Shown here: positions 2,801-49,854 of the stretch, piece by piece
Position numbering within the stretch: the first letter of the stretch is position 1
Layout of the letters: the number at the start of each line of letters is the position of its first letter
DNA from: Endobacter medicaginis
GTDB lineage: Bacteria; Pseudomonadota; Alphaproteobacteria; Acetobacterales; Acetobacteraceae
Direction: 5' to 3'
Length of the DNA: 64,000 nucleotides
Assembly (NCBI RefSeq): GCF_014192375.1
Contig: NZ_JACHXV010000004.1
Coordinates: 310,001 to 374,000 of the forward strand
Notes under the pieces: model-generated
The model's database searches: none
Told to the model about the DNA's origin: nothing
What the model saw: only the letters and a program-made list of their open reading frames with translations
Made by a program: the position numbers and the translations under genes

Positions 2801-5182
2801 GTGCGCGCCCAGGAAATCATCGACCCGACCGGACGGCGACGGCGCGATCTCGGCCGGCGCGTGCGGCGCATCGTGCTGCCGATCGCCGCGGTCGCCCTGG
2901 TGATGGCGGCGATGGCGGCGGTCGGATGGCGCAGCTACGACATCGCGCGCCGCTCGATCGCGAAACTCTCCAACGCCGTGCTGGTCGCCACCCAGACCGC
3001 GATCGCCCAGGAGATGGCGACCTATCTGGTTCCGGCGACGCAAGGCCAGGCGATCGGCCTCGACATGGTCCAGCACGGCGCCCTCGCCCCCAGCGCCGGC
3101 ACGCTGGGCGCGAACAGCTTCCAGCGCTTCGCCGTCGCGCTGATGCGCCAGGACCCGCAGGTCGCGGCCTTCTATCTCGCCAATTCCGACGGCGATTTCG
3201 AGCTGGTGCAGCGTGCCGCCGAGGGCGCCACCGACACCATCGTGGTCACCGACAAGACGCCCGATCACGCCCGCACGCGCACCGAGACCCGCACCGACGA
3301 GTCCGGACGCGTCACCGCACAGCCGCCGCAGCCCAGCACCTACGACCCCAGAAAGAGCCCCTACTACCGCGGCGCGATGCGCCAGCCGGTCGAGGGCGGC
3401 TCGGCCTCGGTGCTGCCGGACGGCTCGACCGTCTACTGGTCGGCGCCCTACCTGTTCAAACCCACCTCGCAGCCGGTGATCACCGCCTCGATCGGCTACA
3501 CCGATCCCGGCGACAGCCGCGACCATGTGCTGGCCGTCAACATCGCGCTCGACCGGATGAGCGCCTTCCTCGCCCGGCTCAAGATCGGCGAGCACGGCCA
3601 TGCGATGATCCTCGACCGCGCCGGCCAGATCATCGCCGCCCCGCCGCTCGCCGACGCCCATGACGACCCCACCGCCTGGCGGCTCGACCACGGCATCACC
3701 GACCCCCGCCTCGCCGACGACGCCGACCTCGTACGTGCCTTCGACCTGTTCCGCGTGCAGGGGTTCGGCCCGCAATCCTTCGTCCTGCACGGCGTGCGCT
3801 ACATCTCGCTCGCCGCCCGACTGCCGGGTGCCGCACCCGACTGGGTGCTGCTGCTGAGCGTGCCGGCGCGCGACTTCGCCGCCTTCTCCGCCGCCGACAC
3901 CCGCTCCACCTTCGTCTCGCTGCTGGTGATCCTGCTGCTCGCGGCCGGGTTGGCCGGGGTGCTGATCTGGCAGGGGCTGCGCTCGGACCGCCTCGTCGCA
4001 GCACTCGATGCGCGCAACGCACGCGGTTCTGCCGAACGCGAGGCGCTGCACGCCTTGCTGTCCGAGCCGCATCTGCTCGATGCCGCGGTCGCCGCACCAG
4101 GCCTGACCGAGCGCCTCGCCGAGGCGGCGGGCGCGGCGCGCGCCTCGATCTGGCGGCTGGTGCATGACGGCACCGTGCTGCGCTGCGACGACCTTTATGA
4201 CGCGCGCAGCGACACCCATGCCGGCGGTGCCGAACTCCAGCTCGAATCGGAGGAGGATTTTGCCGACGCCCGCGCCCGCGAGGCCGGGTTCGCGGTCGAC
4301 GACGCCGCCGCCGACCCGCGCACCCGCCGATACTGGCGCCAGGTCATGCGGGCCGCCGAGACCCGGGCGCTGCTGGCGGTGCCGGTGACCGGCGCGGACC
4401 GCACCGCGGCGATGCTGCTGATCGAGAACCCGACCCGGATCGGCGAGACGGAAGGGCTGATCGACATGATCGGCGGCATCGTCGCCCTGCGCCTGCATGA
4501 CGAGGCCGAGCGCACCCCCGCCCCCACCCCCACCCCCGCCGGTGCGCTGCCGGCGACGCACGAGACGCGCACCGACCCGCTTGGCGACAACCTGCTGCTC
4601 GATCCGGGCGCCGACGGCGCGGCCCCGACCCCGGGCCTGTTCCCGTCGGTCGCGATCATGGTGCTGGCCTTCGGCGACAGCGGCGTCGAGGACACGCCCT
4701 CGACCGACCAGACCCTGCATCTCGTCGACGACATCGCCTCCGGCCTGCAGGACATCGCCCGCCGGCACGGGCTGTTCTCGGTCAAGGTCGCCGGCCACCG
4801 TCTCGTCGCCGCCGCCGGCTGCACACCCGAACCCGATCCGCAGGCGCCGATCCGGCTTGCCCTCGCCGCGATCGCCATCCGCGACTTGTGCCTGTCGCGA
4901 CTGAGTGCCGCCGATATCGACCCCGCCTTCCAGATCGGCCTCGATGTCGGCCCCACCTTCGGCGCCGAGCTCGGCCGCGAACCTTCGGTGTTCAACCTGT
5001 GGGGCGAGACGGTGCGCGTCGCCGAGGCGATGGCGCAGTCCAACCCGCAGCCCGGCTCGATCCAGGTCACCGAAGGCATGTACATCCTGCTGCGGCAGCA
5101 TTTCCTGTTCCGCACCCGCGGCAGCTTCTACACCCCGCGCGGCGGTGTTTCGCGCGCCTATATCCTGGCAGGCCGGCAGTGA
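2801..5182 (+). CDS. Membrane sensor: dCache, GAF and degenerate class III cyclase-like domain
   Basis: A sensor of about 793 residues. The order is: first membrane helix (residues about 24-44), a periplasmic Cache-like ligand domain (about 60-330), a second helix (about 370-393), a GAF-like domain (about 415-565) and a C-terminal class III nucleotide cyclase fold (about 610-790). The fold is recognisable from FNLWGETVRVAEAM (nt 4991 onward), but the residues that make cyclases active are gone. The first metal Asp region reads VAIMVLAF (nt 4646-4680), the second reads KVAGHRLVAAAG with His instead of Asp (nt 4781-4804), and the transition-state Asn and Arg are Arg and Ala. It is therefore probably a ligand-sensing pseudocyclase rather than an enzyme. 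The start is uncertain: GTG 2801 is the best candidate after the fsr stop, and a frame open farther upstream is dismissed as a shadow. The stop overlaps the next start by four bases. Confidence 0.75.
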   Translation: MRAQEIIDPTGRRRRDLGRRVRRIVLPIAAVALVMAAMAAVGWRSYDIARRSIAKLSNAVLVATQTAIAQEMATYLVPATQGQAIGLDMVQHGALAPSAGTLGANSFQRFAVALMRQDPQVAAFYLANSDGDFELVQRAAEGATDTIVVTDKTPDHARTRTETRTDESGRVTAQPPQPSTYDPRKSPYYRGAMRQPVEGGSASVLPDGSTVYWSAPYLFKPTSQPVITASIGYTDPGDSRDHVLAVNIALDRMSAFLARLKIGEHGHAMILDRAGQIIAAPPLADAHDDPTAWRLDHGITDPRLADDADLVRAFDLFRVQGFGPQSFVLHGVRYISLAARLPGAAPDWVLLLSVPARDFAAFSAADTRSTFVSLLVILLLAAGLAGVLIWQGLRSDRLVAALDARNARGSAEREALHALLSEPHLLDAAVAAPGLTERLAEAAGAARASIWRLVHDGTVLRCDDLYDARSDTHAGGAELQLESEEDFADARAREAGFAVDDAAADPRTRRYWRQVMRAAETRALLAVPVTGADRTAAMLLIENPTRIGETEGLIDMIGGIVALRLHDEAERTPAPTPTPAGALPATHETRTDPLGDNLLLDPGADGAAPTPGLFPSVAIMVLAFGDSGVEDTPSTDQTLHLVDDIASGLQDIARRHGLFSVKVAGHRLVAAAGCTPEPDPQAPIRLALAAIAIRDLCLSRLSAADIDPAFQIGLDVGPTFGAELGREPSVFNLWGETVRVAEAMAQSNPQPGSIQVTEGMYILLRQHFLFRTRGSFYTPRGGVSRAYILAGRQ

Positions 5183-6018
5183 GCGGCGCGACGGCCGAGC
5201 GCGCGCCCCTGCCGCTGCGGCTGCTGCCGGGCAGGCTGCGGCGCACCGCCGCGGCCGTCGGCCGGCAGACCCGCGCGATGCTGCGCTTCCTGCTCGCCCT
5301 GGTCGGCGCGAGCTACGGGGTGGCGCGCGAGGCGCTGCGTCCGACGAGCTGGCGGCGCACCACCCGCACCGAGTTCCGCACCACGCTGCGCCAGGCGGCC
5401 GGCGGCGGCGTGCTCGCCACCGTGCTGACCGGCATCCTGGTGGGGGCGGCGGCGGTGGCGCAGGCGATGTACTGGCTCGGCATCGCCGGGCTGGTGGAAA
5501 GCGGCGGCGTGCTGGTGATCAACGTGCTGCTGCGCGAGTTCGCCCCCATCCTCGTCGGCATCATCCTGCTCGGCCGCAGCGGCATGCCGATGGTCGCGGA
5601 GATCGCCCGTCTGGGCGCGTCCGGCCGGCTGCGCACGCTGGAGGCGGAAGGTGTGGACAGCTTCATCCTGCTGGTGCTGCCGCGCAGCCTCGCCTTCGCG
5701 GTCAGCGGCTTCACCCTCGGCATCGTGTTCGCCGTCGCCGCCCTGCTCTCGGCCTACGTCACCGGTATCGCCGAAGGGGTGGTCAACACGCCGCTGTGGA
5801 GCTTCATGGCGCATGTCTCGACCTCGATCGGGGCGCATTCCTATGTCGCGGTGCCGATCGAACTGGCCCTGGTCGGCTATCTGGTCGGGCTGTCGAGCTG
5901 CCTGACCGGGCTGGGGCTGGCCGGCGAGGACGGGCTGCTGCACCAGCTCGCCCACGGGTTCGGCCGCGGCATCCTCACCGTGATGACGGTCAGCATCCTG
6001 TTCGCGGTGTTCGCATGA
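5179..6018 (+). CDS. MlaE-family lipid transport permease
   Basis: A 279-residue integral membrane protein of the MlaE/YrbE (DUF140) family, the permease of MCE-type phospholipid transporters. Several hydrophobic helices are visible, with the family-like stretch REFAPILVGIILLGRSG followed by EIARLGASGRLRTLEAEGVD, equivalent to the cytosolic coupling region of MlaE. The start is GTG 5179, overlapping the stop of the sensor gene in a GTGA arrangement; the stop overlaps the next ATG in the same way. It probably sits in the inner membrane and works with the MCE protein encoded at 6734. No paired intact ATPase is present in the operon. Confidence 0.85.
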   Translation: MSGATAERAPLPLRLLPGRLRRTAAAVGRQTRAMLRFLLALVGASYGVAREALRPTSWRRTTRTEFRTTLRQAAGGGVLATVLTGILVGAAAVAQAMYWLGIAGLVESGGVLVINVLLREFAPILVGIILLGRSGMPMVAEIARLGASGRLRTLEAEGVDSFILLVLPRSLAFAVSGFTLGIVFAVAALLSAYVTGIAEGVVNTPLWSFMAHVSTSIGAHSYVAVPIELALVGYLVGLSSCLTGLGLAGEDGLLHQLAHGFGRGILTVMTVSILFAVFA

Positions 6019-6737
6019 GCGAGACCACCGCCCCGGCCAGCCGCGCGGTGCTCGAGCTGCGCGACCTGCGGCCCGATTTCCGCCTCAGCCAGCTCGCCCC
6101 GCACCCGGTCAACCTGCGCCTGCGTGCCGGCGAGTGCCTCCAGATCGTCACCCGCGGCTGGCGCGAGGCGGCCGCCTTCGCCGATCTGTGCGAGGGGCTG
6201 GTGGACCCGTTCGACGGCACCGTGCTGATGCAGGGGCTCGACTGGGCCGGGTTGCCGCGACGCGAGGCCGGCGCGCTGCGCGGGCGCATCGGACGCACCC
6301 ATCATCGCGGCGCCTTCAACGAACTCGCCCCCGTCGGCGAGGACATCCTGCTGCCGCAGCTGCACCACACGCGGATACCGCGCCCGAAGCTGATCGCCGC
6401 CGCCGAAGCGCTGTGCCTGCGTTTCGGCCTGCCGGGCCTGCCCACCGGCCTGCCCGGCGAGATCGGCGAGGCCGATCTTGCCCGCGCCAACTGCGTTCGC
6501 GCCTTTCTCGGCCACCCCGACCTGCTGCTGCTGGAGCCGCCGATGCTCACTGCCCCCGACCTGCTGCCGGCCTTCCTCGCCGCACTGACCGAGGCCCGAG
6601 ACCGGGGTGCTGCGGCGATCTGCTTCACCCGCCGGCTCGATCTCGGCGATGGCGCGGTGCGCCGCTCCTTCGGCGGCGTGTTCAGCCATCGCAGCCTGCT
6701 CGGCGATGACGGCCTGCGGCCGCTGCATCTCGCATGA
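6015..6737 (+). CDS. ABC ATPase-like protein with all nucleotide-binding motifs lost (MlaF position)
   Basis: A 240-residue protein in the place of MlaF between permease and MCE subunit. The overall ABC layout is readable: an early strand LELRDLRPDF, the sequence CLQIVTRGWREAAAF where the Walker A should be, DGTVLMQGLDWAGLP after it, a Q-loop region GRTHHRGAFNELAP, and LLLLEPP where Walker B should end in Asp-Glu. The Walker A glycines and lysine, the Q-loop Gln, the LSGG signature (here EIGEADLAR), the Walker B Asp and the H-loop His (FTRRLD) are all absent. It is probably a pseudo-ATPase with a structural or regulatory role. It overlaps both neighbours by four bases (ATGA). Confidence 0.75.
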   Translation: MSETTAPASRAVLELRDLRPDFRLSQLAPHPVNLRLRAGECLQIVTRGWREAAAFADLCEGLVDPFDGTVLMQGLDWAGLPRREAGALRGRIGRTHHRGAFNELAPVGEDILLPQLHHTRIPRPKLIAAAEALCLRFGLPGLPTGLPGEIGEADLARANCVRAFLGHPDLLLLEPPMLTAPDLLPAFLAALTEARDRGAAAICFTRRLDLGDGAVRRSFGGVFSHRSLLGDDGLRPLHLA

Positions 6738-7735
6738 CCCCCGAACGTCCCCCCGAGCTCCAGGCCGAACGCGCCCGCGACACCGTCGCGGCGGAGGCGA
6801 TCGCCGGGCATCGCAGCGGCCGCCTCACCCGGCGCCGCTACACCGACGAATGGGTCGGGCTGCTGGTGCTGGCCGCGATCGGCGTGTTCGCCGCCGCCGC
6901 GATCGAGGCCGGCATCCTGCACAACTGGCTGCAACCGCCCGGCCGGCTGCACATCCTGCTGCCGCAGACCGGGGTGGGCGGGCTGTCGCCGGGTGCCGAT
7001 GTCGAGGTGTTCGGCATCCATGCCGGCACCGTGCGCCATGTCCGCCTCAATCCCGATGGCGAGACCTGGGCGGAGGCCGAGATCGACCCGCAGGCCGAAC
7101 CCTTCATCCGCCGCGACAGCGCCGCCACCATCAAGCTGCGCTACGCGGTCGCGGGGGCGGCCTATGTCTCGCTGTCGCGCGGCAAGGGCGAGCCGATGGA
7201 CTGGCACTACGCCGTGGTCAAGGCGACCACCGACCCCAACCCGGTCGACATGATCACCGCCACCATCGCCGACATCCGCACCCATGTCCTGCCGATCCTC
7301 GACAACGCGCAGGCGATGACCGCCTCGCTCAAGGCCGTCGCCGCCGACCTCCAGCAGGGCCGCGGCAGCGCCGGCAAGCTGCTGACCGACGACACGCTGA
7401 TCCGACAGGCCGAGGCGACAGTGACGAAGCTCCAGGACACGATCGCGAAGCTCCAGCCGCAGATCGGCTCGGTGCTCGACCACGCCAACCGCACAATGAG
7501 CAACGTCCAGTCCGCCAGCCGCGACCTCAAGGCCGCCACCCCGCAGCTCCCGGCCATCACCCGCAACGCCCGCGACGCCACCGCCGAGCTGCCTGCCCTG
7601 CTGCTCCAGGCGCAGGCCACCACCCACGACCTGCAGGGCCTGATCACCCAGCTGCGCGGCCTGTGGCTGCTCGGCGGCGGCGGCACGCCCAAACCCGCCG
7701 ACCACCGCATCAGCCCCGCGCAGGTCGCCCCATGA
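6734..7735 (+). CDS. MCE/MlaD-family lipid-binding protein
   Basis: A 333-residue membrane-anchored protein. One N-terminal helix (WVGLLVLAAIGVFAAAAIEAG, about residues 37-57) is followed by a single MCE domain beginning HILLPQTGVGGLSPGADVEVFGIHAGTV. The remainder (about residues 170-310) is a long alpha-helical stretch with regularly spaced Leu/Ala, as in MlaD- and PqiB-like proteins that build periplasmic lipid conduits. ATG 6734 overlaps the previous stop by four bases and the stop overlaps the next gene likewise. It is expected to bind lipids in the periplasm, docked on the MlaE-like permease. Confidence 0.85.
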   Translation: MTPERPPELQAERARDTVAAEAIAGHRSGRLTRRRYTDEWVGLLVLAAIGVFAAAAIEAGILHNWLQPPGRLHILLPQTGVGGLSPGADVEVFGIHAGTVRHVRLNPDGETWAEAEIDPQAEPFIRRDSAATIKLRYAVAGAAYVSLSRGKGEPMDWHYAVVKATTDPNPVDMITATIADIRTHVLPILDNAQAMTASLKAVAADLQQGRGSAGKLLTDDTLIRQAEATVTKLQDTIAKLQPQIGSVLDHANRTMSNVQSASRDLKAATPQLPAITRNARDATAELPALLLQAQATTHDLQGLITQLRGLWLLGGGGTPKPADHRISPAQVAP

Positions 7736-8514
7736 GGCGCGCACCCGCAGCCCTCGCGCTCGCATTGCTGCTGCTGTCAGGCTGCGCGAGCCACCCCGCC
7801 CCGCCGCAGGACGATGCGATGGAGGTGGCGATCTCCGCCGGCCGCCAGGCGATGGACAACCACCAGCCCGCGCAGGCGATCCCCCGCTTCGAGGACGCGA
7901 ACCGCCGCGCCCTGCTGCGCGACGACGCCCCGGCCCTCGCCGATATCGGCTACGACCTCGCCGCCGCCCGCCTCGCCGACAACCACCCCGACGCCGCCCT
8001 GTCCGAACTCGCCCGCACCCGTGCCGCACTGTCCCTGCGCGGCCACCCCGCCCCGCCGGCACTCGATCTCGTCGCAGCCGCCGCCCTCGACCGCCTCGCC
8101 CGCCTCCCCGAAGCCCGCATCGCCGCCACCCGCGCCGCCACCAGCCCCGACCCGGCCATCGCCGCGCGCGCGCTCTTCCTGTCCGGCCTGATCGCCGACC
8201 ATGCCGGCGACCGCACGGGCGTCATCGACGCCAGCACCCGCCTCGACCACCTCGCCCCGGCGAAAGCCCTGCCCCGCTGGCGCCAGGCCGACCGCCTCGA
8301 ACTCGCCGCCCGCGCCGCCCTGGCCTCCGGCCACCCCGACACAGCCCTGGCCACCATACGCCAGGCCATCGACCTGCGCCGCGACGACACCGACTATCCC
8401 GCCCTGCGCCGCGGCCTGCGTCTCGCCGCGGCCGCGGCAGGCGCACTGGGGCAAACCAGTATGGCGGCAGCCTACGAAGCCCAGGCTACGCAGAGTCTCG
8501 ACGCGGCGAAGTGA
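7732..8514 (+). CDS. TPR-like outer-membrane lipoprotein of the MCE operon
   Basis: A 260-residue lipoprotein: the N-terminus is a short signal peptide ending in a lipobox (LLLLSGC, Cys at about residue 19). The mature part consists of alanine-rich paired helices (for example ISAGRQAMDNHQPAQAIPRFEDANRRAL and ALASGHPDTALATIRQAIDL) that resemble tetratricopeptide repeats. It occupies the place that MlaA/PqiC-type lipoproteins hold in other MCE operons but shares no obvious sequence with them. It overlaps the MCE gene by four bases and is the last gene before a repeat element with terminator-like hairpins. Confidence 0.75.
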   Translation: MRRAPAALALALLLLSGCASHPAPPQDDAMEVAISAGRQAMDNHQPAQAIPRFEDANRRALLRDDAPALADIGYDLAAARLADNHPDAALSELARTRAALSLRGHPAPPALDLVAAAALDRLARLPEARIAATRAATSPDPAIAARALFLSGLIADHAGDRTGVIDASTRLDHLAPAKALPRWRQADRLELAARAALASGHPDTALATIRQAIDLRRDDTDYPALRRGLRLAAAAAGALGQTSMAAAYEAQATQSLDAAK

Positions 8515-8516
8515 GC

Positions 8517-8611
8517 GTTCTTTCTTGAAAGAAAGAACCAAAGAACTTCTAAAAGATTTTTTCGTCAGTCGGATAAAAGTCTTTTTGCTTCTTTTTCTTC
8601 AGAAAAAGAAG
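8517..8611 (+). repeat. Composite palindromic repeat, copy 1 (modules A + B)
   Basis: Module A is a perfect 10-bp stem (8517-8526 with 8529-8538, based on GTTCTTTCTT). A linker CAAAGAACTTCT and a run GATTTTTTCG follow, then a variable spacer, then AAAGTCTTTTTG and module B, a perfect 11-bp stem (8588-8598 with 8601-8611, based on CTTCTTTTTCT). The same layout recurs inverted at 49724-49854. Lying between the convergent lipoprotein and ligase genes, both hairpins probably act as a two-way terminator. Its low GC contrasts sharply with its surroundings. Confidence 0.85.
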
Positions 8612-8616
8612 AACCC

Positions 8617-10221
8617 TTATGACGGGATCAGCCGCAACAGCGTCTCCAGCCGATCCGCCTCCTCGAACGGCTTGTCCGGCCGCAGCCGCGCGACACGCGG
8701 AAAGCGCAGCGCCACCCCCGATTTGTGCCGGTTCGAGCGCTGGGCGGCATCGAACGCGATCTCCAGCACCAGCCCGGGTGCGACCTCGCGCACGGGCCCG
8801 TAGCGACGGGTGGTGTTGTTGCGGATCCAGCGGTCCATCTGCGCCAGTTCCGCATCGGTGAAGCCCGAATACGCCTTGCCGACCGGGACCAGTTCCGCAC
8901 CTTCCGCACCGTCGCGCCACAGGCCGAACGTGTAGTCGGAATAAAACGAGCTGCGCTTGCCATGCCCACGCTGCGCATACATCACCACCGCGTCGATGGT
9001 CAGCGGATCGCGCTTCCATTTCCACCACAGACCCTTCGGCCGCCCGGCCACATAGGGGCTGTCACGGCGCTTGAGCATCACGCCCTCGATCGACGCCGCG
9101 CGTGCGCCATCGCGCAGGCTCGAGAGGGTGTCGAAATCCGCCGCCTCGATCACCGCCGAGAGATCCATCCTCGGCGGCCGATGCGTCGCGAACCACGCTT
9201 CCAGACGTGCCCGCCGCTGCTCAAAGGGCAACGCGCGCAGGTCCTCCCCTTCCTCGAACAGCAGGTCGTAGAGCCGCACGGCCACCGGATGCTGTTCCAT
9301 CAGCGCCACGCCGGGCACCTTGCGGTTCAGACGCTGCTGGAGGTCGGCGAAGGGGGCGACCTCGCCGTCGCGGATCACCAGCAATTCCCCGTCGAGCACC
9401 GCATCGAAGCCCATCGCCTCGACGATCTCCGGAAATGCCGCCGAGACGTCGTCCGACCCGCGCGAGTAGATGCGCCGCCCGCCCGGCACCGAAACGAGCT
9501 GCACGCGGATCCCGTCCCATTTCCACTCCGCGCAGTAGGCGGCGTAGTCGAGTGCGGCGATATCCGCCGCCTCCAGCGGCTGTGCCAGCATCGGCGAGCG
9601 GAACACCGGCGCATCCTGCGGATCGGGCCGCGGCCCGCGCGCCTCGAGCCAGTCGAACAGCTCGGCATAGGGTGGAGCGAGCCCGTGCCAGACCTCCTCG
9701 ATCTCGTCGACGCTCACGCTGCCGCCGGCCAGTTCCGCCAACGCCGTCTTCGCCAGCCGCGCCGATGCACCCACGCGCAGCGCTCCGGTCATCAGCTTGA
9801 GAATCGCATAGCGGACCGGCGGATCGGAGGCATCGAGCCAGCCCTCGAGAAGGGCGGGAAGCTCCGCCTTCGGCGTATGCATCAGCCCGTCCACCACCTC
9901 GGCCAGCATCGGCGGCGTGCGCACGCTGTTGCGGCCGAACGCGTCGTCACGCGCGGGCCAGATCAGCGACACCGTCTCGGCGAGATCGCCGACATAGTCA
10001 CACGACCATTCGAACAGCACCGGATCGGTGCGCGCCTGCGCGAGCGCACGGATCAGCGCGGGCTTGGCGAGCGGAAACGACAGCGTGCCGGTCAGCGCCG
10101 CCAGCCCCCAGCCGCGATCGGGATCAGGCTCGGTGCGGAAGAATTCCCGCAGCAGTGCGAGCTTGGCCAGCCGCCCCGGCGTCAGTGTCAGCCGCTCCAG
10201 CAGGGTGGCGAAGGCGATCAT
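8617..10221 (-). CDS. ATP-dependent DNA ligase of the exonuclease-associated type
   Basis: A 534-residue ATP-dependent DNA ligase. The nucleotidyl-transfer motif I is EWKWDGIRV with the adenylated lysine at about residue 234; motif III (VLDGELLV), motif IV (EGVMLKRRDSPYVAGR) and motif V (WWKWKRDPLTIDAVVMYA) follow, then an OB-fold domain ending with a RFPRVARLRPDKP motif VI region. The N-terminal 200 residues form the DNA-binding domain. This is the ligase found next to an MBL-fold exonuclease in many proteobacteria, part of a DNA repair set (family knowledge). ATG 10221 overlaps the exonuclease stop by four bases. The helicase and phosphoesterase partners of that set are not nearby. Confidence 0.9.
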   Translation of the reverse strand: MIAFATLLERLTLTPGRLAKLALLREFFRTEPDPDRGWGLAALTGTLSFPLAKPALIRALAQARTDPVLFEWSCDYVGDLAETVSLIWPARDDAFGRNSVRTPPMLAEVVDGLMHTPKAELPALLEGWLDASDPPVRYAILKLMTGALRVGASARLAKTALAELAGGSVSVDEIEEVWHGLAPPYAELFDWLEARGPRPDPQDAPVFRSPMLAQPLEAADIAALDYAAYCAEWKWDGIRVQLVSVPGGRRIYSRGSDDVSAAFPEIVEAMGFDAVLDGELLVIRDGEVAPFADLQQRLNRKVPGVALMEQHPVAVRLYDLLFEEGEDLRALPFEQRRARLEAWFATHRPPRMDLSAVIEAADFDTLSSLRDGARAASIEGVMLKRRDSPYVAGRPKGLWWKWKRDPLTIDAVVMYAQRGHGKRSSFYSDYTFGLWRDGAEGAELVPVGKAYSGFTDAELAQMDRWIRNNTTRRYGPVREVAPGLVLEIAFDAAQRSNRHKSGVALRFPRVARLRPDKPFEEADRLETLLRLIPS

Positions 10222-11264
10222 GCCGCCGCCCCCTCACCCTCCGCGGCCGGCGCCTCCTCCTCGTCGCCATAGCCGAGCAGACGCAGCGCGCGCCCGGTGC
10301 GCCCCGAACCCTCGATCCAGTGGATCAGCGCCTCCTCCCGCCCGTGCGTCACCCAGATTTCCGGCGCATCCACCTCGTCGATGGTGCGACAGAGCTCGTC
10401 CCAGTCGGCATGATCCGAGATCACCAGCGGCAGTTCCACACCGCGCGCCTTCGCCCGCTGCCGCACCCGCATCCATCCCGAGGCCAGCCCCACCACCGGA
10501 TCGGCGAGCCGCCGCGCCCAGCGATCGGCGATCGCCCCCGGCGGAGCGAGCACGATCGCGCCCGCCAGCTCCGCCCTCGCCCGCCCTGTCGCCGCACGCA
10601 GATCACCCAAAGGGACACCCAACCGCTCATAGGTGTCGCAGACCGACATCAGCGCACCATGCAGATAGATCGGTCCGTCCCACCCTGCCTCGCGCAGCAG
10701 CAGGATCAGCCTCTGGCACTTGCCCAGCGCATAGCACCCCACGACATGCGTGCGCTCGGCAAACAGCCGCACGCTGTCGAGCAGCCTGCCGATTTCGCCG
10801 CGCGGATCGGGATGGCGGAACACCGGCAGGCCGAAGGTCGCCTCGGTGACGAACACGTCGCACGCCACCGGCACGAACGGCGCACAGCTCGGATCGGCGA
10901 CGCGCTTGTAATCGCCGCTCACCACCGCGCGACTGCCGCGATACTCCATCACCACCTGCGCACTGCCCAGCACATGCCCGGCCGGCTCCAGCCGCACCTC
11001 GACATCGCCGATGCGCAGGCCCTCGCCATAGCGCAGTTCCTGCTGCTCGCGCGCCGGTCGATCCTCGCCCATCCGGGTGCGCATGATCGCCAGGCTTTCC
11101 GGCGTGGTCAGCACATGCTCGTGGCCGGGCCGCGCATGATCGGCATGGGCATGGGTGACGATCGCATGCGCCACCGGCTGCACCGGGTCGATATGGAATC
11201 CTCCCGGCGCGCACCACAGCCCTTCCGGACGCGGCGTCAGCCAGCCCGACGGATGCGGCGTCAT
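10218..11264 (-). CDS. Ligase-associated MBL-fold DNA exonuclease
   Basis: A 348-residue metallo-beta-lactamase-fold protein with beta-CASP character. The metal site THAHADHARPGH lies at residues 37-48; VVSGDYKRVADP and a later ISDHADWDEL supply further metal ligands. The pattern matches the exonuclease encoded beside ATP-dependent ligases, proposed to trim DNA ends before sealing (family knowledge, related to SNM1/Artemis enzymes). ATG 11264 overlaps the GMC dehydrogenase stop by four bases, and its own stop overlaps the ligase start, so all are translated as one unit. A longer frame upstream is only an extension into the dehydrogenase gene. Confidence 0.88.
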   Translation of the reverse strand: MTPHPSGWLTPRPEGLWCAPGGFHIDPVQPVAHAIVTHAHADHARPGHEHVLTTPESLAIMRTRMGEDRPAREQQELRYGEGLRIGDVEVRLEPAGHVLGSAQVVMEYRGSRAVVSGDYKRVADPSCAPFVPVACDVFVTEATFGLPVFRHPDPRGEIGRLLDSVRLFAERTHVVGCYALGKCQRLILLLREAGWDGPIYLHGALMSVCDTYERLGVPLGDLRAATGRARAELAGAIVLAPPGAIADRWARRLADPVVGLASGWMRVRQRAKARGVELPLVISDHADWDELCRTIDEVDAPEIWVTHGREEALIHWIEGSGRTGRALRLLGYGDEEEAPAAEGEGAAA

Positions 11265-12790
11265 CGCGCCGCGAGGAAGGCGCGCGCGGTGCGCAGCGAC
11301 AGCGCCATGATCGTCAGCGCCGGATTGGCCGCCAGCGCGCTCGGAAACACCGAGTTGTCGCAGATCCACAGATTGTCGATATCAAAACTCCGCCCGGCCG
11401 GATCGACGACGTTGCGATCCCCGCTCCTTCCCATCCGGCAGGTGCCGATCGTATGCGCCACACGCGGCAGCACCTGGATGTCGCTCGCCCCCGCCTGCTG
11501 CCAGATCGCCCGCATCACCTTCGTCGCATGGGCATCGAGCGCGCGTTCGTTGTCGTGATAGGAAAAACGGATCAGCGGCCTGGCCATGCCGCTCTCATCG
11601 GTCTCGTCCGACAACACCAGCACGTTGTCGTCATGCGGCAGCGTCTCGCCATTGATGCCGATCCCGGCGGCATGGTTGTAGCGTGACAGCAGATCGACCA
11701 ATGCGGCTCCGCGCACACCGCCGCGCGACAGCATGTTGGCCCAGGTCACCGGCAGCACGCCGAGGCTCTGGATCAGATAGCCCCCGGCGAAATCCGCATC
11801 GTCGGGGCGGACGAAATCCTCCGTGATCAGCGCGGACGGATAGCCCTTGTTCATCCGCATCTCGTCGTCGAATATCCCCCACACCTGGGTCGCGACATGC
11901 GCCATGTAGTTCCGCCCGACCTGGCCGGAGGAATTGGCAAGCCCCGTATGCAGCAGCAGACGCGGCGTCTCCACCGCGCCGGCGCAGACAAACACCTGCC
12001 CGCACGCCTGACGGTAACGCACCCCGTCGCGCAGATAGACGACATCGCTGATCCTGCCGGACGAATCACGGACGAGATCGATCACCATGCATCCGTCGCG
12101 GATCTCCGCGCCATGCGCGGTGGCGATGCGCAGCCAGGTATTGGCGGTGCTGGCCTTGGCATCGTTGCGACAGCCTTGGTGACAGTGCCCGCAACTGATG
12201 CAGGCCTGACGGGTGAAGCCGTCGGGTTCGACCCGGTCGGCGGTCAGCACCGCGGCCGGCGACGTCGCATGGCGGATGCCAAGCGCATCGCAGCCGCGCT
12301 GCATGACCTGCGCCGGCGCGTTCAGCGCGACCGGCGGCAGACGGTAGCGGCGATCGGCGTCCCACGGATACTCCCTGGGCCCCGACACGCCGATCACCGC
12401 CTCGACGGTCTCGTAAAGTGGCGTCAGTTCATCGAGACCGAACGGCCAGTCCTCGCCACCCTCCGCCGCCATGCGCAAGTCGCGCGCATCGGCCCGCGGC
12501 GTGAACGCGCCCCAGTGCAGGGTGGAGCCACCCACACCGATGCCGCTGTTGTTGCCCCCGAACGCCTCCGGCGTCGCCCCGCCCGAGAGACGCTCCGACA
12601 GCCAGTAGATCGGGTCGGCGGCCAGTTCGTCAGCGACGAAATCGCGCGGGTCCCAGGCACGGCCGGCTTCCAGCGCCACCACCCGCACCCCGGCGCGCGC
12701 CAGCTCCGCCAGCAGCGGCGCGCCCCCCGCACCGGTGCCGATCACCACCACATCGACCGCCTCCGGGGTCGCCCCGATGGCGGCACTCAC
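11261..12790 (-). CDS. GMC-family FAD dehydrogenase with a cysteine-rich (Fe-S type) motif
   Basis: A 509-residue flavoprotein. The FAD-binding glycines are in VVVIGTGAGGAPLLAELARAG (GxGxxG at residues 18-23), and the C-terminal catalytic region contains HTIGTCRMG and AANPALTIMALSLR, as in GMC alcohol/sugar oxidoreductases. Four cysteines at 197, 200, 203 and 207 (CISCGHCHQGC) match the gluconate 2-dehydrogenase and FAD-glucose-dehydrogenase branch, where such cysteines bind an iron-sulfur cluster (family knowledge). GTG 12790 is chosen because it overlaps the upstream stop as GTGA. The partner small subunit is encoded by the 3' part of the upstream fusion gene. Substrate is unknown; no cytochrome subunit is adjacent. 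Confidence 0.85.
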   Translation of the reverse strand: MSAAIGATPEAVDVVVIGTGAGGAPLLAELARAGVRVVALEAGRAWDPRDFVADELAADPIYWLSERLSGGATPEAFGGNNSGIGVGGSTLHWGAFTPRADARDLRMAAEGGEDWPFGLDELTPLYETVEAVIGVSGPREYPWDADRRYRLPPVALNAPAQVMQRGCDALGIRHATSPAAVLTADRVEPDGFTRQACISCGHCHQGCRNDAKASTANTWLRIATAHGAEIRDGCMVIDLVRDSSGRISDVVYLRDGVRYRQACGQVFVCAGAVETPRLLLHTGLANSSGQVGRNYMAHVATQVWGIFDDEMRMNKGYPSALITEDFVRPDDADFAGGYLIQSLGVLPVTWANMLSRGGVRGAALVDLLSRYNHAAGIGINGETLPHDDNVLVLSDETDESGMARPLIRFSYHDNERALDAHATKVMRAIWQQAGASDIQVLPRVAHTIGTCRMGRSGDRNVVDPAGRSFDIDNLWICDNSVFPSALAANPALTIMALSLRTARAFLAAR

Positions 12791-24880: not shown

Positions 24881-24917
24881 CTTCTTTTTCTGAAGAAAAA
24901 GAAGCAAAAAGACTTCT
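24881..24917 (-). repeat. Composite palindromic repeat, partial copy 2 (module B only)
   Basis: A perfect 11-bp stem (24881-24891 with 24894-24904, based on CTTCTTTTTCT) followed by CAAAAAGACTTCT. It is the inverse orientation of module B in copy 1. It sits nine bases after the stop of the MotB-like gene, where the hairpin with following A/T bases may terminate transcription. Confidence 0.8.
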
Positions 24918-36527: not shown

Positions 36528-37610
36528 TCAGCCGCGCTGCAGCGCACGGAACACGACATCGCGAAAACGCTGGCCGCCACCATGGGCGGCGATCGCGGCG
36601 TTCGGGGGCAGCAGCTCGCCGGTGTAGAGATGCGTCCCGCCGAACACATAGGCGCCGCGCGTCTCCGTGCCGTTGAGTTCCACGGCGACATGCACCTGCT
36701 CGAAGCGGTCGATGATCGCTGGGTCGAGCAGCATCGCGGCCGCCAGCGGGTCGTTGTAGGTGGCGCCGGGCTTGTGCCGTGTCTGCATCTCGAAGCGCAG
36801 CCGCTCGGTGTTGGAGCGCAGGAAGATCTCGCTTCGCCTGGTATGAAGACCCCCGATCCGCTCGAAATCGGCAGGGCCGAGCATCGCGTCCGGCCCGAGA
36901 TCGCCGGTCATCACGATCGGTGCTCCGGACCTCATGACGATGTCGGCCGCCTCCGGATCGACCATCGAATTGAAGCTGACATTGGTGCCGATCCCCTCGT
37001 AGCGACCACCGACCAGCACGATCCCGCGCAGCTTGCCGGCGATGGCAGGATCGACGATCAGGGCCGAGGCGATATTGGTCAGCCCGCCCAGCCCGAGCAG
37101 CACCACCTCGCCGGGAAATCTCGACACGATATCGACGATCGCCGTCGCCGCATGTCCGGCCGCGGCCGGCGCGCCACCATCCGGCACGACGAGTTCGCCG
37201 AGCCCGGAGGCGCCGTGGATGAACCCGGCATGGGGATAAGACCGGTTGAGCAGCGGATGACCCAGCCCGCGGAAGACGGGAATCGTCCCGTTGCCGAACA
37301 GTCGCGCCACATACAGCGCGTTGCGAACCTCCTGGTCATACTCGACATTCCCCGGAGCAACGGTAATCGCCTCGATGCCGAGCCCAGGCGCACCGAGCAG
37401 CATCAGCAGCGCCAGCAGATCATCGGTGCCCGGATCGGTGTCGACGATGACGCGGCGCACACCGTTCAGCCAGTCGACGGACGGCACCGGCTGGCCCAGG
37501 GCGGTCCACGCCGCCTGACCGCGCGCGCCCTTCACCGCTGCTCCCGCGACCAGCGCGGCCGCGCCACCGAAAATGAACCCGCGCCGACCGACGCGGCAGG
37601 ATCGGCTCAT
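36528..37610 (-). CDS. Tat-exported nucleoside hydrolase
   Basis: A 360-residue nucleoside hydrolase preceded by a twin-arginine signal (GRRGFIFGGAAALVAGAAVKGARG). The catalytic aspartates are in VIVDTDPGTDDLLALLML; VAPGNVEYDQEVRNALYVA, LLGLGGLTNIASAL, VLVGGRYEG and SFNSMVDPEAADIVMRSG match the family. It cleaves the N-glycosidic bond of ribonucleosides; here outside the cytoplasm, unlike typical RihA/B enzymes. ATG 37610 is favoured because it places the twin arginine at residues 8-9; a GTG at 37658 is possible. It lies 72 bases after ftsH. Confidence 0.85.
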   Translation of the reverse strand: MSRSCRVGRRGFIFGGAAALVAGAAVKGARGQAAWTALGQPVPSVDWLNGVRRVIVDTDPGTDDLLALLMLLGAPGLGIEAITVAPGNVEYDQEVRNALYVARLFGNGTIPVFRGLGHPLLNRSYPHAGFIHGASGLGELVVPDGGAPAAAGHAATAIVDIVSRFPGEVVLLGLGGLTNIASALIVDPAIAGKLRGIVLVGGRYEGIGTNVSFNSMVDPEAADIVMRSGAPIVMTGDLGPDAMLGPADFERIGGLHTRRSEIFLRSNTERLRFEMQTRHKPGATYNDPLAAAMLLDPAIIDRFEQVHVAVELNGTETRGAYVFGGTHLYTGELLPPNAAIAAHGGGQRFRDVVFRALQRG

Positions 37611-37682
37611 ACCCGCTGCAGCCCCGTCATCGAACGAATGCAATCCATGCGCGGACACGAGGCAGGGCGCGCGGCGTGCGGA

Positions 37683-39599
37683 TCAGCCTGCCGCCGGGGC
37701 CGGCTCGGCCGGCGGCTCCTCCTGCCGCTTGCCCGTGCTGGGCACCGAGGCGCGACGGTTCTCGACCATCGGCTCGTCCACCACCCGCTTGATCACCGGC
37801 TCGCCGCGCAGGACGGTACGGATCTCGTCGCCGGACAAGGTCTCGTATTCGAGCAGGCCGCGCGCGAGACGATGCAACTCCTCGACATTGTCGCTCAGCA
37901 GCGTGCGGGCGTGGTTATAGGCATTGTCGATGATCGAGCGGATCTCGCTGTCCACCTCGCGCGCGGTGGCCTCGGAGACGTTCTTGTTCTGCTGGACCGA
38001 ATGGCCGAGGAACAGCTCCTGGCTGTTATCGCCATAGGCCATCATGCCGAGCTTCTCGCTCATACCCCATTCGGTCACCATCCGGCGCGCCTGGTCGGTG
38101 GCCATCTTGATGTCGCCCGACGCACCCGACGAGACCTTGTCGGCGCCGAAGATGATCTCCTCGGCCGCACGCCCGCCCATCGCCATCACCAGCTCGGACA
38201 GCAGCTTGGACTTGCTCTTCGAGTAGCGATCACCCTCCGGCAGGCTCATCACCAGGCCGAGCGCCCGGCCGCGCGGGATGATGGTCGCCTTGTGGACCGG
38301 GTCACATTCCGGCAGGTGCATCGCGCAGAGCGCGTGGCCGCCCTCGTGATAGGCGGTCATCCGCTTCTCGGCATCGCTCATCACCAGCGAGCGGCGCTCC
38401 GCCCCCATCAGCACCTTGTCCTTGGCGTTCTCGAACTCGAGCATCGCCACGGTACGCTTGCCGAGGCGGGCGGCGAGCAAAGCTGCCTCATTGACGAGAT
38501 TGGCCAGATCGGCGCCCGAGAAGCCGGGCGTACCACGGGCGATGGTCTTGGGGTCGACATCGGAGGCAAGCGGCACCTTGCGCATGTGCACGCGCAGGAT
38601 CTTCTCGCGACCGGCGACGTCGGGATTGGGCACCACGACCTGACGGTCGAAGCGGCCCGGACGCAACAGGGCGGGGTCGAGCACGTCGGGACGGTTGGTG
38701 GCGGCAATCAGGATCACGCCCTCGTTGCTCTCGAACCCATCCATCTCGACCAGCATCTGGTTGAGCGTCTGCTCGCGCTCGTCATTGCCGCCGCCCAGGC
38801 CGGCGCCGCGATGGCGCCCCACCGCGTCGATCTCATCGATGAAGATGATGCAGGGCGCGCTCTTCTTGCCCTGCTCGAACATGTCGCGCACGCGCGAGGC
38901 ACCGACGCCGACGAACATCTCGACGAAATCCGAGCCGGAAATGGTGAAGAACGGCACGTTGGCCTCGCCGGCGATGGCACGGGCCAGCAGCGTCTTGCCG
39001 GTGCCGGGTGGGCCGACCAGCAGCACGCCCTTGGGGATCTTGCCGCCGAGACGCTGGAATTTCTGCGGGTCGCGCAGGAAATCGACGATCTCCTGCAGCT
39101 CGCCCTTGGCCTCGTCGATGCCTGCGACGTCATCGAAGGTGATGCGGCCCTGCTTCTCGGTCAGCATCTTCGCGCGCGATTTGCCAAACCCCATCGCCCG
39201 GCCGCCACCGGACTGCATCTGGCGCATCACGAACAGCCAGGCGCCGAAGAACAGCAGCGTCGGCAGCCAGCCGATCAGGATTCGCAGCAGCGGCGAGGTG
39301 TCGGATTCGAGCGGCTTGGCGATCACCTGCACCTTGTGATCGAGCAGGCGGGAGACCAGGCCGGGATCGCTCGGCGCATAGGTCTCGAAGGCGGTGCCAT
39401 TGGTGAGCTGGCCGGAGACGTTGTGCTCCTGGATCACCACGCTGCGCACCTGCCCGGAATCGACGTCGCTGATGAAGTCGGAGAAGGCGAGCTGCTGCGC
39501 GAGGTGCTGGTTGCTGGCCGGTTGAAGCATCTCGAAGACCAGCGCCAGCACGAGGGCGACGATGATCCACGGGGCCAGCAGACGTCCGAAATTACCCAT
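37683..39599 (-). CDS. ftsH: ATP-dependent membrane metalloprotease FtsH
   Basis: A 638-residue AAA protease. An N-terminal helix (about 11-26), a periplasmic part and a second helix (about 107-125) precede the ATPase: Walker A GPPGTGKT (196-203), Walker [12 protein letters not shown], second region [20 protein letters not shown]. The zinc site HEGGH is at 418-422. It degrades membrane and short-lived regulatory proteins. ATG 39599 is preferred because AAGGA lies just upstream; 39611 would add four residues. An upstream open frame is a shadow over tilS. Confidence 0.96.
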
Positions 39600-39732
39600 C
39601 TCTTCCTTCATCCGTGGCCAGGAGGGTGCGGCGGCAGCCCGGCATCCCGACCAGTCCTCAACATAGGATGCCCGACAAAGGTAAACAGCCCCTTTCTGTG
39701 CAGATCGGCCACAGTACGGGATGATTTTTATG

Positions 39733-41001
39733 TCAGGGCCACAGGGCCCGGCCCAGCAGCGGATCGCGCCAGACGGGTTCGACGCCCAGATCCGCGTATC
39801 CCGGCTCGAAGAATCCGAGATGAGGCACGGCGACCAGCCGCGCCCCCTGGCGCAGGGCCGGAATCGCGGCCCGCAGTGCCGGCTTCGGCCAGGGATGGGC
39901 GACGACGCGCGGGGGCGGTTGGGCGCCGAGCGCGCCGAGAGTGACGCCGTCGCCCGGCCTGCCGCGCAGGCGGAAGCGCGCATCCCAGACCGCGCCGTCC
40001 GCAGCCGCGACCGGCGCGGCACAGGCGGCGGGCTCGCGCACCAGCCAGACCGCACCCGCGGAACGCACGGCGCGCACACCGCCGAGCGTCGCACCCGCGG
40101 CCGCCCTGGCGGCAAATGTCGCCAGGGCGTTCGTGCCGGGTGCGAACGCCCCCGCCCCCACCCAGCGCACCAGTGCCGACAGCGCGGCCGGGCTGAGCCG
40201 GGCCGGGGCGACACGCAGGGCCACCGCACCATAGGCCGTCGGCGCGCAGCAGGCGGCGAGTTCATCGGCGAGCGCCGCCTCGCCGCGCATCCTGGCCGAT
40301 CCGGCCGCAGCGGCACGCGCCAGCAGCGCGGCGATGGCGTCGGGATCGTCGCGCAGCCCGGCACGCAGGCGGGCGCGGGTGTGACGGTGATCGGCGTTGG
40401 ACGGATCCTCCACCCAGCCGAGTCCCGCCGCGCGCAGCACCTCGCGCAGCCCCTGCGGCGGGCAGCCGAGCAGCGGGCGCACCAGGCGAAGGTCGCGCTG
40501 CTCGGCGATCGTCGCCATTGCCGCGAGACCGCGCTCCCGGCTGCCGGCCCGTTCACGCATCGCCACCGTCTCGGCCTGGTCCAGCCGGTGATGGGCGAGC
40601 AGCAGGTCGATCGCGCCGGCCTCGCGACACGCTGCAAACAGCGCCGTGTAGCGGGCCGCGCGGGCACGGGCGGCGATCGCCGGACCCGGGCCGAGATTGT
40701 CGAGCCGCAGGATGCGGGACTCGACGCCGATCGCGGCCAGGCGCCGCGCGGTCAGCGCCGCCTCGTCGGCCGATTCCGGGCGCAGGCGATGATCGACGAT
40801 CAGCCCGAGCAGGCGATCGGGCCGCCCTTGCGCGGTCCCGGCCTGCCAGCGCTGTGTCAGCCACGCCAGCGCGAGGCTGTCGGCGCCGCCCGAGACCGCG
40901 AGGGCGACGGGGCCGCCGGCCCAAGGACCGAGCCCGGCCATCCGCCCGGCGAACCAGGCGGCGTCGGGCGGTGCAGCGTCAGTGGCAGGCGCTGCGGGCA
41001 C
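39733..41001 (-). CDS. tilS: tRNA(Ile)-lysidine synthase
   Basis: A 422-residue enzyme that converts the wobble cytidine of the AUA tRNA into lysidine. The PP-loop is [19 protein letters not shown] (SGGADS at 37-42), and [21 protein letters not shown] and [32 protein letters not shown] follow. The C-terminal domain is poorly conserved. GTG 41001 overlaps the cpoB stop by 23 bases, which is somewhat long; a later start is not obvious. The cpoB-tilS-ftsH order is typical of the group. Confidence 0.9.
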
Positions 41002-49723: not shown

Positions 49724-49854
49724 CTTCTTTTTCTGAAGAAAAAGAAGCAAAAAGACGTCTATCCGTTTCTGGACGGTCAGGAGGTGCTGGCACCGTCCCG
49801 AACCACCCCGAAAAAATCCAGAAGTTCTTTGGTTCTTTCTTTCAGGAAAGAACC
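49724..49854 (-). repeat. Composite palindromic repeat, inverted full copy 3
   Basis: Module B (perfect stem 49724-49734 with 49737-49747, based on CTTCTTTTTCT) is followed by CAAAAAGACGTCT, a spacer of about 60 bases, GAAAAAATC, AGAAGTTCTTTG and module A (GGTTCTTTC 49831-49839 with GAAAGAACC 49846-49854). Read on the - strand the order of parts is identical to copy 1. It lies between the secA end and the yebC start and probably terminates secA transcripts. Confidence 0.85.

Follow-up and report, generated by a model that had tools for sequence, protein, structure and literature searches.

How an MCE lipid-transport system might work when the ATPase subunit encoded in its own operon has lost the residues that handle ATP is the question raised by a five-gene locus of Endobacter medicaginis (genome of 3.63 Mb), located at 2801-8514 of the 64,000-nucleotide stretch analyzed here (positions 310,001 to 374,000 of contig NZ_JACHXV010000004.1; hereafter, the window). 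The locus is a single + strand operon that encodes a sensor, an MlaE-type permease, a protein in the position of MlaF, an MCE protein and a lipoprotein, with 4-base overlaps at all four junctions (Table 1). A first-pass annotation made from the letters alone had described this operon with its overlaps, whose coordinates and frames proved correct, and had proposed that both the MlaF-position protein and the cyclase-like domain of the sensor are catalytically dead. Our analysis identified a gene set with conserved content and order, present in two phyla and under purifying selection, in which the third protein has a predicted ATP-binding cassette (ABC) fold and lacks the ATP-handling residues. 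We give about even weight to the reading that these genes make up a self-contained module for MCE lipid transport, in which a dedicated pseudo-ATPase has taken the place of the ABC ATPase subunit, and which acts as a sensor-gated, ATP-free diffusive conduit.

The product of the third gene (pseudo-MlaF) has no match in Pfam, and its closest sequence match in the PDB is the MlaF protein of Acinetobacter (7d06, E 1.8e-10), followed by OppF and E. coli MlaF. An AlphaFold2 model built on a 36-row alignment (pLDDT 90.0, pTM 0.88) ranked E. coli MlaF first in Foldseek (6xbd_I, E 1.8e-16, TM-score 0.76), and re-alignment of this model with VIA-align gave Z scores of 24.2 to LolD and 22.3 to MlaF. Since LolD scores above MlaF, the fold supports the assignment as an ABC protein, and its identity as MlaF rests mainly on sequence and operon context. 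Compared with the two canonical MlaF proteins of the same genome, pseudo-MlaF has TRGWREAA in place of GGSGSGKS at Walker A, His for the Q-loop Gln and Arg for the H-loop His, and has lost the signature; at Walker B it has EP instead of the canonical DE. The alignment with canonical MlaF thus bears out the proposal that Walker A, Q-loop, signature, Walker B Asp and H-loop His are all missing.

Motif residues were counted in 87 pseudo-MlaF homologs and 22 canonical MlaF proteins, leaving out three homologs that are truncated or have a mis-set start (L131, L140 and L142). The Walker A pattern is found in 0/87 homologs versus 22/22 canonical proteins, and the Walker A Lys in 0/87. The motif does not lie elsewhere in the protein, as GK[ST] occurs at any position in 0/87 homologs versus 22/22 canonical proteins. 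The Walker B Asp (0/87), the H-loop His (2/87) and the D-loop Asp (1/87) are each present in 22/22 canonical proteins, and the homologs retain the Q-loop Gln in 12/87, the catalytic Glu in 9/87, the signature Ser in 54/87 and its two glycines in 3/87 and 5/87. In place of the motifs, the pseudo-MlaF proteins share other conserved stretches (LRGRIGR, QLHHT, FGLPGLP and RAFLG). The Walker B Asp is replaced by Glu in 86/87 (6534-6536 in the window), a strict substitution that, judging from the alignment, looks selected rather than lost. On these residues, ATP hydrolysis by the operon's own ATPase subunit through the ABC mechanisms known to us is very unlikely. It should be noted that Pfam ABC_tran matches 9 of 36 scanned pseudo-ATPases and the other 27 escape it, so surveys based on Pfam domains may miss this system; PMC5561183 describes a neighborhood survey of this type.

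The second putatively inactive component is the sensor. This protein comprises a transmembrane (TM) segment at residues ~20-44, a dCache domain, a second hydrophobic stretch (~364-382), a GAF domain (435-556) and, at 635-789, a degenerate domain with homology to class III cyclases; dCache_1, GAF and Guanylate_cyc all score above the Pfam cut-off. The cyclase domain (PF00211, E 3.9e-11) is matched in 17/17 scanned homologs as well, and by sequence it is most closely related to adenylate cyclases of bacteria and mammals. Class III cyclases depend on two metal-binding Asp residues, a transition-state Asn/Arg pair and an Asp that recognizes adenine. The first-pass annotation had both metal Asp residues and the Asn/Arg pair missing, which holds for the second metal Asp (His in the window) and for the pair (Arg/Ala). 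For the first metal Asp the outcome depends on the register: in the register against mammalian cyclases, taken from the homolog L130 alone, an Arg occupies the position, and an Asp lies three residues further on (FGD in the window), where it is kept in 61/69 homologs. Among the 69 cyclase domains, the transition-state Arg is present in one and absent in 68, and the adenine-recognition Asp is present in none, Asn being found there in all; the transition-state Asn occurs in 18/69 and the second metal Asp in 7/69, six of which also keep the FxD Asp. In view of these substitutions we regard the domain as a pseudo-cyclase that has been conserved, although the status of the first metal Asp depends on the register. 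Because the operon's own ATPase is without motifs and its cyclase apparently inactive, the module is probably driven or gated by something other than its own ATPase.

In the samples searched, full-length sensors were found only in genomes that carry the pseudo-ATPase (5/270 class genomes and 6/142 order genomes), and matches in non-carriers covered the Cache part only. The sensor of carrier G145 is split in two pieces, that of G890, which is outside these counts, is cut by a contig end, and carrier G960 has no sensor row among the matches listed.

The junction between MlaE and MlaF is formed by a coupling helix (PMC7790496, PMC8241846). Canonical MlaE proteins have two near-invariant Asp residues in this helix (19/20 and 20/20), and operon-type MlaE proteins have Gly (68/68) and Arg (65/68) at these positions; rows outside 255-350 aa, and the canonical MlaE of L174 and L186, whose extension stopped early, were left out of this comparison. 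We infer that the operon MlaE still receives an ABC-like partner, through a changed surface. The whole coupling helix was also considered as a hot spot of divergence, which the data do not support: its identity to canonical MlaE is 0.253, versus 0.215 for the remaining MlaE, and the change is limited to certain residues.

On the periplasmic side, the MCE protein has a single TM segment (37-63), a single MCE domain (~70-166) and a helical arm (170-315). In its model (pLDDT 75.7, pTM 0.50) the arm has 138 helical residues over three segments, and at 1.5 Å per residue it would measure ~22 nm if extended, which is of the order of the width of the periplasm. In Foldseek this model is matched best by Mce1 subunits of mycobacteria and by MlaD, at TM-scores that are low over the query. 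The protein ends in a WxLGG...P tail (7649-7732), in which 29 rows from both phyla show no variation at W, L, G and the final P, and this tail is a possible docking site for the lipoprotein. The lipoprotein itself has nothing over the Pfam cut-off, just weak TPR and BamD-like matches; with the window query it was found in 66/69 named loci (see below). No STAS (MlaB-type) match was detected in any of the five proteins with Pfam at E up to 1, and none of them matched PqiA, the membrane protein being MlaE by Pfam.

Table 1. Genes and gene overlaps of the MCE operon in the window.
Feature	Coordinates	Strand	Description
sensor gene	2801..5182	+	793 aa; Pfam dCache_1, GAF, Guanylate_cyc
MlaE-type permease gene	5179..6018	+	279 aa; Pfam MlaE PF02405 E 2.7e-25, over cut-off
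pseudo-MlaF gene	6015..6737	+	240 aa; ABC nucleotide-binding-domain fold, catalytic motifs gone
MCE protein gene	6734..7735	+	333 aa; Pfam MlaD PF02470 E 1.5e-11, over cut-off
lipoprotein gene	7732..8514	+	260 aa; TPR-like; LLLSGC lipobox by eye
sensor/mlaE 4-base overlap	5179..5182	+	GTGA
mlaE/pseudo-mlaF 4-base overlap	6015..6018	+	ATGA
pseudo-mlaF/MCE gene 4-base overlap	6734..6737	+	ATGA
MCE gene/lipoprotein 4-base overlap	7732..7735	+	ATGA

The distribution of the operon was analyzed in several genome samples. Among 60 genomes, including that of E. medicaginis, ten score at least 132 bits with the pseudo-ATPase and the next scores 52; the nine other high scorers all keep the order sensor-MlaE-pseudo-MlaF-MCE protein, and eight of them have the lipoprotein at the threshold used. 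In a sample of the family Acetobacteraceae, 136/397 genomes, from 38/102 genera, match at E 1e-20. A further set of 69 loci from named genomes, a lower bound given its retrieval by two peptide patterns, includes Acetobacter, Gluconobacter, Asaia, Komagataeibacter, Gluconacetobacter, Novacetimonas and others. Outside Acetobacteraceae, the operon was found in a second alphaproteobacterial family, in Skermanella (one locus) and in Desulfobacterales-type metagenome-assembled genomes (MAGs; labeled Desulfobacterales, Desulfosarcina, Desulfobacteraceae and Deltaproteobacteria), and thus in two phyla. All five genes are present in 65/69 named loci, and the order and strand of the genes present are kept in 69/69; two of the incomplete loci have no lipoprotein match (L081 and L126) and two are cut by contig ends (L106 and L129). 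With gene starts assigned by a simple rule, the 4-base overlap recurs at the sensor-MlaE junction in 40/69 loci and at the MCE-lipoprotein junction in 49/69. The loss of motifs and the gene order are conserved in related genomes, a check that the first-pass annotation had proposed, and no homolog with intact motifs at the same locus, which it had named as a refuting result, was found in any copy read.

Ten further loci, two of which (L222 and L223) resemble the contigs of L126 and L124, are complete in nine cases, the other stopping at a contig end, and GK[ST] is absent from gene 3 in all of them. By eye, gene 3 is also without motifs in a set of 20 divergent family loci, whose neighboring genes are present up to the contig limits, with the lipoprotein or sensor match weak or missing in several. 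In the order to which the L130 genome (Desulfobacterales-type) belongs, 9/146 genomes are carriers; in one genome of this order sample (G931) the module lies on two contigs (L224 and L225). A phylum sample gave 16/398 genomes matching at E 1e-20, of which six are true carriers (at least 244 bits) and the other ten correspond to ordinary ABC ATPases (up to 82 bits). Around the weak matches (73-82 bits) there was no sensor match within ~1.5 kb, and in the same interval the MlaE of the pseudo-system never scored better than canonical MlaE; locus L168 proved to hold a canonical pair of MlaE and MlaF. We also looked in these samples for an ancestral copy in which this sensor stands next to an ATPase with its motifs intact, and found none.

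Rates of change point to purifying selection. Over 12 pairs, and with a rough counting script, omega ranged over 0.025-0.33 for the pseudo-ATPase; the corresponding ranges were 0.007-0.29 (MlaE) and 0.018-0.21 (MCE gene). In a tree, 45 pseudo-ATPases separate with support 100/100 from 20 canonical MlaF proteins, the latter taken from one orthologous group. The Desulfobacterales-type sequences nest among the alphaproteobacterial pseudo-ATPases with modest support (91/83 and 90/84), and the window protein groups with Acetobacteraceae sequences on a long branch (0.88).

Under the reading of a sensor-gated conduit, two MlaE and two pseudo-MlaF proteins would form the membrane base, on which an MCE ring, a hexamer by analogy, would extend its helical arm toward the outer membrane, where the lipoprotein would cap the ring or arm. 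The dCache domain of the sensor would read a periplasmic signal that substitutes for ATP binding and hydrolysis. In the cytosol, the dimer of GAF and cyclase-like domains might contact the coupling region of pseudo-MlaF and MlaE through a putative docking surface, with the cyclase-like domain acting as a protein-protein signaling module that would produce no cAMP, and this contact would switch a path for lipid diffusion between open and closed states. A broader formulation, in which a widespread class of MCE systems evolved away from ATP and the pseudo-ATPase and pseudo-cyclase receptor together form a signal-gated inter-membrane lipid path whose state is set by a periplasmic ligand, is plausible to us at slightly less than even weight.

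Several observations weigh against this reading. The helical arm of the MCE model has pLDDT values of 54-77 when taken by block, the loss of cyclase residues is not uniform (the 18/69 and 7/69 noted above), and carrier G844 has no sensor match at 1e-40 and only a 191-aa stretch in tblastn. Pseudo-MlaF may bind nucleotide without hydrolyzing it. Since the coupling helix is no more diverged than the rest of MlaE, it may still accept an ABC ATPase, and there are candidates to provide one: the same genome encodes an intact MlaF in each of two canonical MCE-ABC sets (L033:3908-5532 and L034:2709-6149), a minimum of two MlaE matches was found in 136/136 family-sample carriers, some of which may be fragments in G149 and G350, and other MlaE genes were found in 13/14 carriers examined individually. 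As an observation apart, MlaE is longer in the L034 set, which also includes a small gene for a lipoprotein, with features that by appearance are STAS-like and ABC-auxiliary-like.

These other MCE genes lend themselves to an alternative that we regard as possible, if rather unlikely, in which an intact MlaF from elsewhere powers the system by binding the operon MlaE, and pseudo-MlaF regulates it or replaces it at rest. The retention of a recognizable coupling helix and the precedent of MceG, one ATPase for several mycobacterial Mce permeases, also agree with such powering in trans, and the exchange of its near-invariant Asp residues for Gly and Arg goes against it. ABC dimers are arranged head to tail, and an ATP site needs a Walker A and a signature; both are gone from pseudo-MlaF, so a mixed dimer would be left without any complete site, which weakens the heterodimer version. 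The form of this explanation that remains is a homodimer of intact MlaF acting on the operon MlaE. In one MAG (G890), the operon's own MlaE is the sole MlaE match, a point against this explanation that is limited by the possible incompleteness of the MAG and by the presence of MlaF-like ATPases at 39-41% identity.

The coexistence of other MlaE genes in all family-sample carriers, together with the sensor in the operon, would also suit a module that moves no lipid and instead monitors the state of the envelope so as to adjust the activity of the canonical MCE systems, perhaps through mixed complexes. We consider such a regulator or brake quite improbable, as purifying selection maintains a permease, an MCE protein and a lipoprotein specific to the operon, which is beyond the needs of a brake, and G890 shows no other MlaE to act on. 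Even less probable is that the cyclase domain, the pseudo-ATPase or both retain a non-canonical use of nucleotides: the near-universal Glu at the Walker B position, the signature Ser and the few sensors that keep the second metal Asp could be taken in its favor, against which stand the complete absence of the P-loop Lys and of GK[ST] and the single sensor with a transition-state Arg. A decaying operon, a pseudogene or a sequencing or assembly error, to which the long branch of the window copy might point, can practically be discarded, because both losses (ATPase and cyclase) are conserved across homologs, with the same losses in two phyla, and omega is well below 1 in 12/12 pairs.

Among the known systems closest to the operon, Mla/MlaFEDB of E. 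coli, Acinetobacter and P. aeruginosa likewise encodes MlaE, an MCE-domain protein and a protein of ABC ATPase fold in one operon, and its MlaF is the nearest relative of pseudo-MlaF by sequence and the first by Foldseek. The operon described here differs in having no ATPase motifs and no STAS match, in the changed residues of the coupling helix, and in its dCache-GAF-cyclase-like sensor and TPR-like lipoprotein. Mycobacterial Mce systems share the MCE domain and a long helical arm, although the TM-scores to the Mce1 subunits are low; to our knowledge their operons contain no pseudo-ATPase, and MceG, which serves several of their permeases, is an intact ATPase. They provide a precedent for an ATPase encoded at another locus, MceG being presented in the available part of PMC9947336 as the ATPase serving Mce permeases. 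Pqi and Let are described in PMC12436622 as MCE systems without an ATPase domain in which the MCE protein spans the periplasm; unlike these systems, which use PqiA/LetA, the operon has an MlaE-type membrane base and a single MCE domain. In Brucella Mpc and Veillonella Mla, as far as the available text of PMC12436622 and PMC10665443 goes, MlaE/MlaF are combined with a long MCE protein that bridges the periplasm, and the Brucella bridge includes an outer-membrane lipoprotein; the ATPase of these bridges is described as conserved and MlaF-like, and the partial descriptions compared mention no sensor gene. Finally, class III cyclase receptors share the Cache, GAF and cyclase domains, and the present sensor differs from them in the near-complete loss of the transition-state Arg, in the absence of the adenine Asp and in its location in a transporter operon.

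The first-pass annotation knew of no described system of this design, and in the literature searched, which covered few subscription papers and preprints, neither a motif-less ATPase nor a cyclase-like sensor turned up in any MCE operon described. What would be new is an MlaE-based MCE system in which the ATPase fold is kept and the catalytic motifs are gone; ATP-free MCE systems (Pqi, Let) were already known on another membrane base. There is debate about energy use by MCE systems and also about which way the lipids flow. Here a conserved natural system, kept in acetic acid bacteria and in some sulfate-reducer-related bacteria, allows docking by MlaF to be told apart from catalysis, and its operon structure ties a receptor to a lipid transporter. 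Since the carriers include tractable Gluconobacter, Komagataeibacter and Acetobacter, this is directly testable.

Regarding the limits of the module, no flanking gene recurs in more than 5/22 loci, a set that includes several short contigs, and on this basis the module consists of these five genes. Directly upstream of the operon (738-2792) are genes for a 2OG-Fe dioxygenase and an MFS transporter, the stop codon of the latter lying 8 bases ahead of the sensor start. This MFS gene was considered as a sixth member and rejected, as the window MFS query had no match in the 69 named loci; other conserved neighbors were likewise rejected, none recurring beyond 5/22 loci.

Elsewhere in the window, a 22-base near-palindrome, TTCTTTTTCTTCAGAAAAAGAA, is found at 8589-8610, 24882-24903 and 49725-49746 (3 in the window versus 0 expected). 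Genome-wide it has 38 copies, of which 35 are identical; it is AT-rich within a GC-rich genome, and is perhaps a repeated intergenic element or a terminator. At 8617-11369 on the - strand, an ATP-dependent DNA ligase gene adjoins one for a beta-lactamase-fold protein, by appearance an end-processing pair. A 1120-aa open frame at 36582-39944 has no Pfam match and lies opposite another long frame, and is probably a high-GC antisense artefact.

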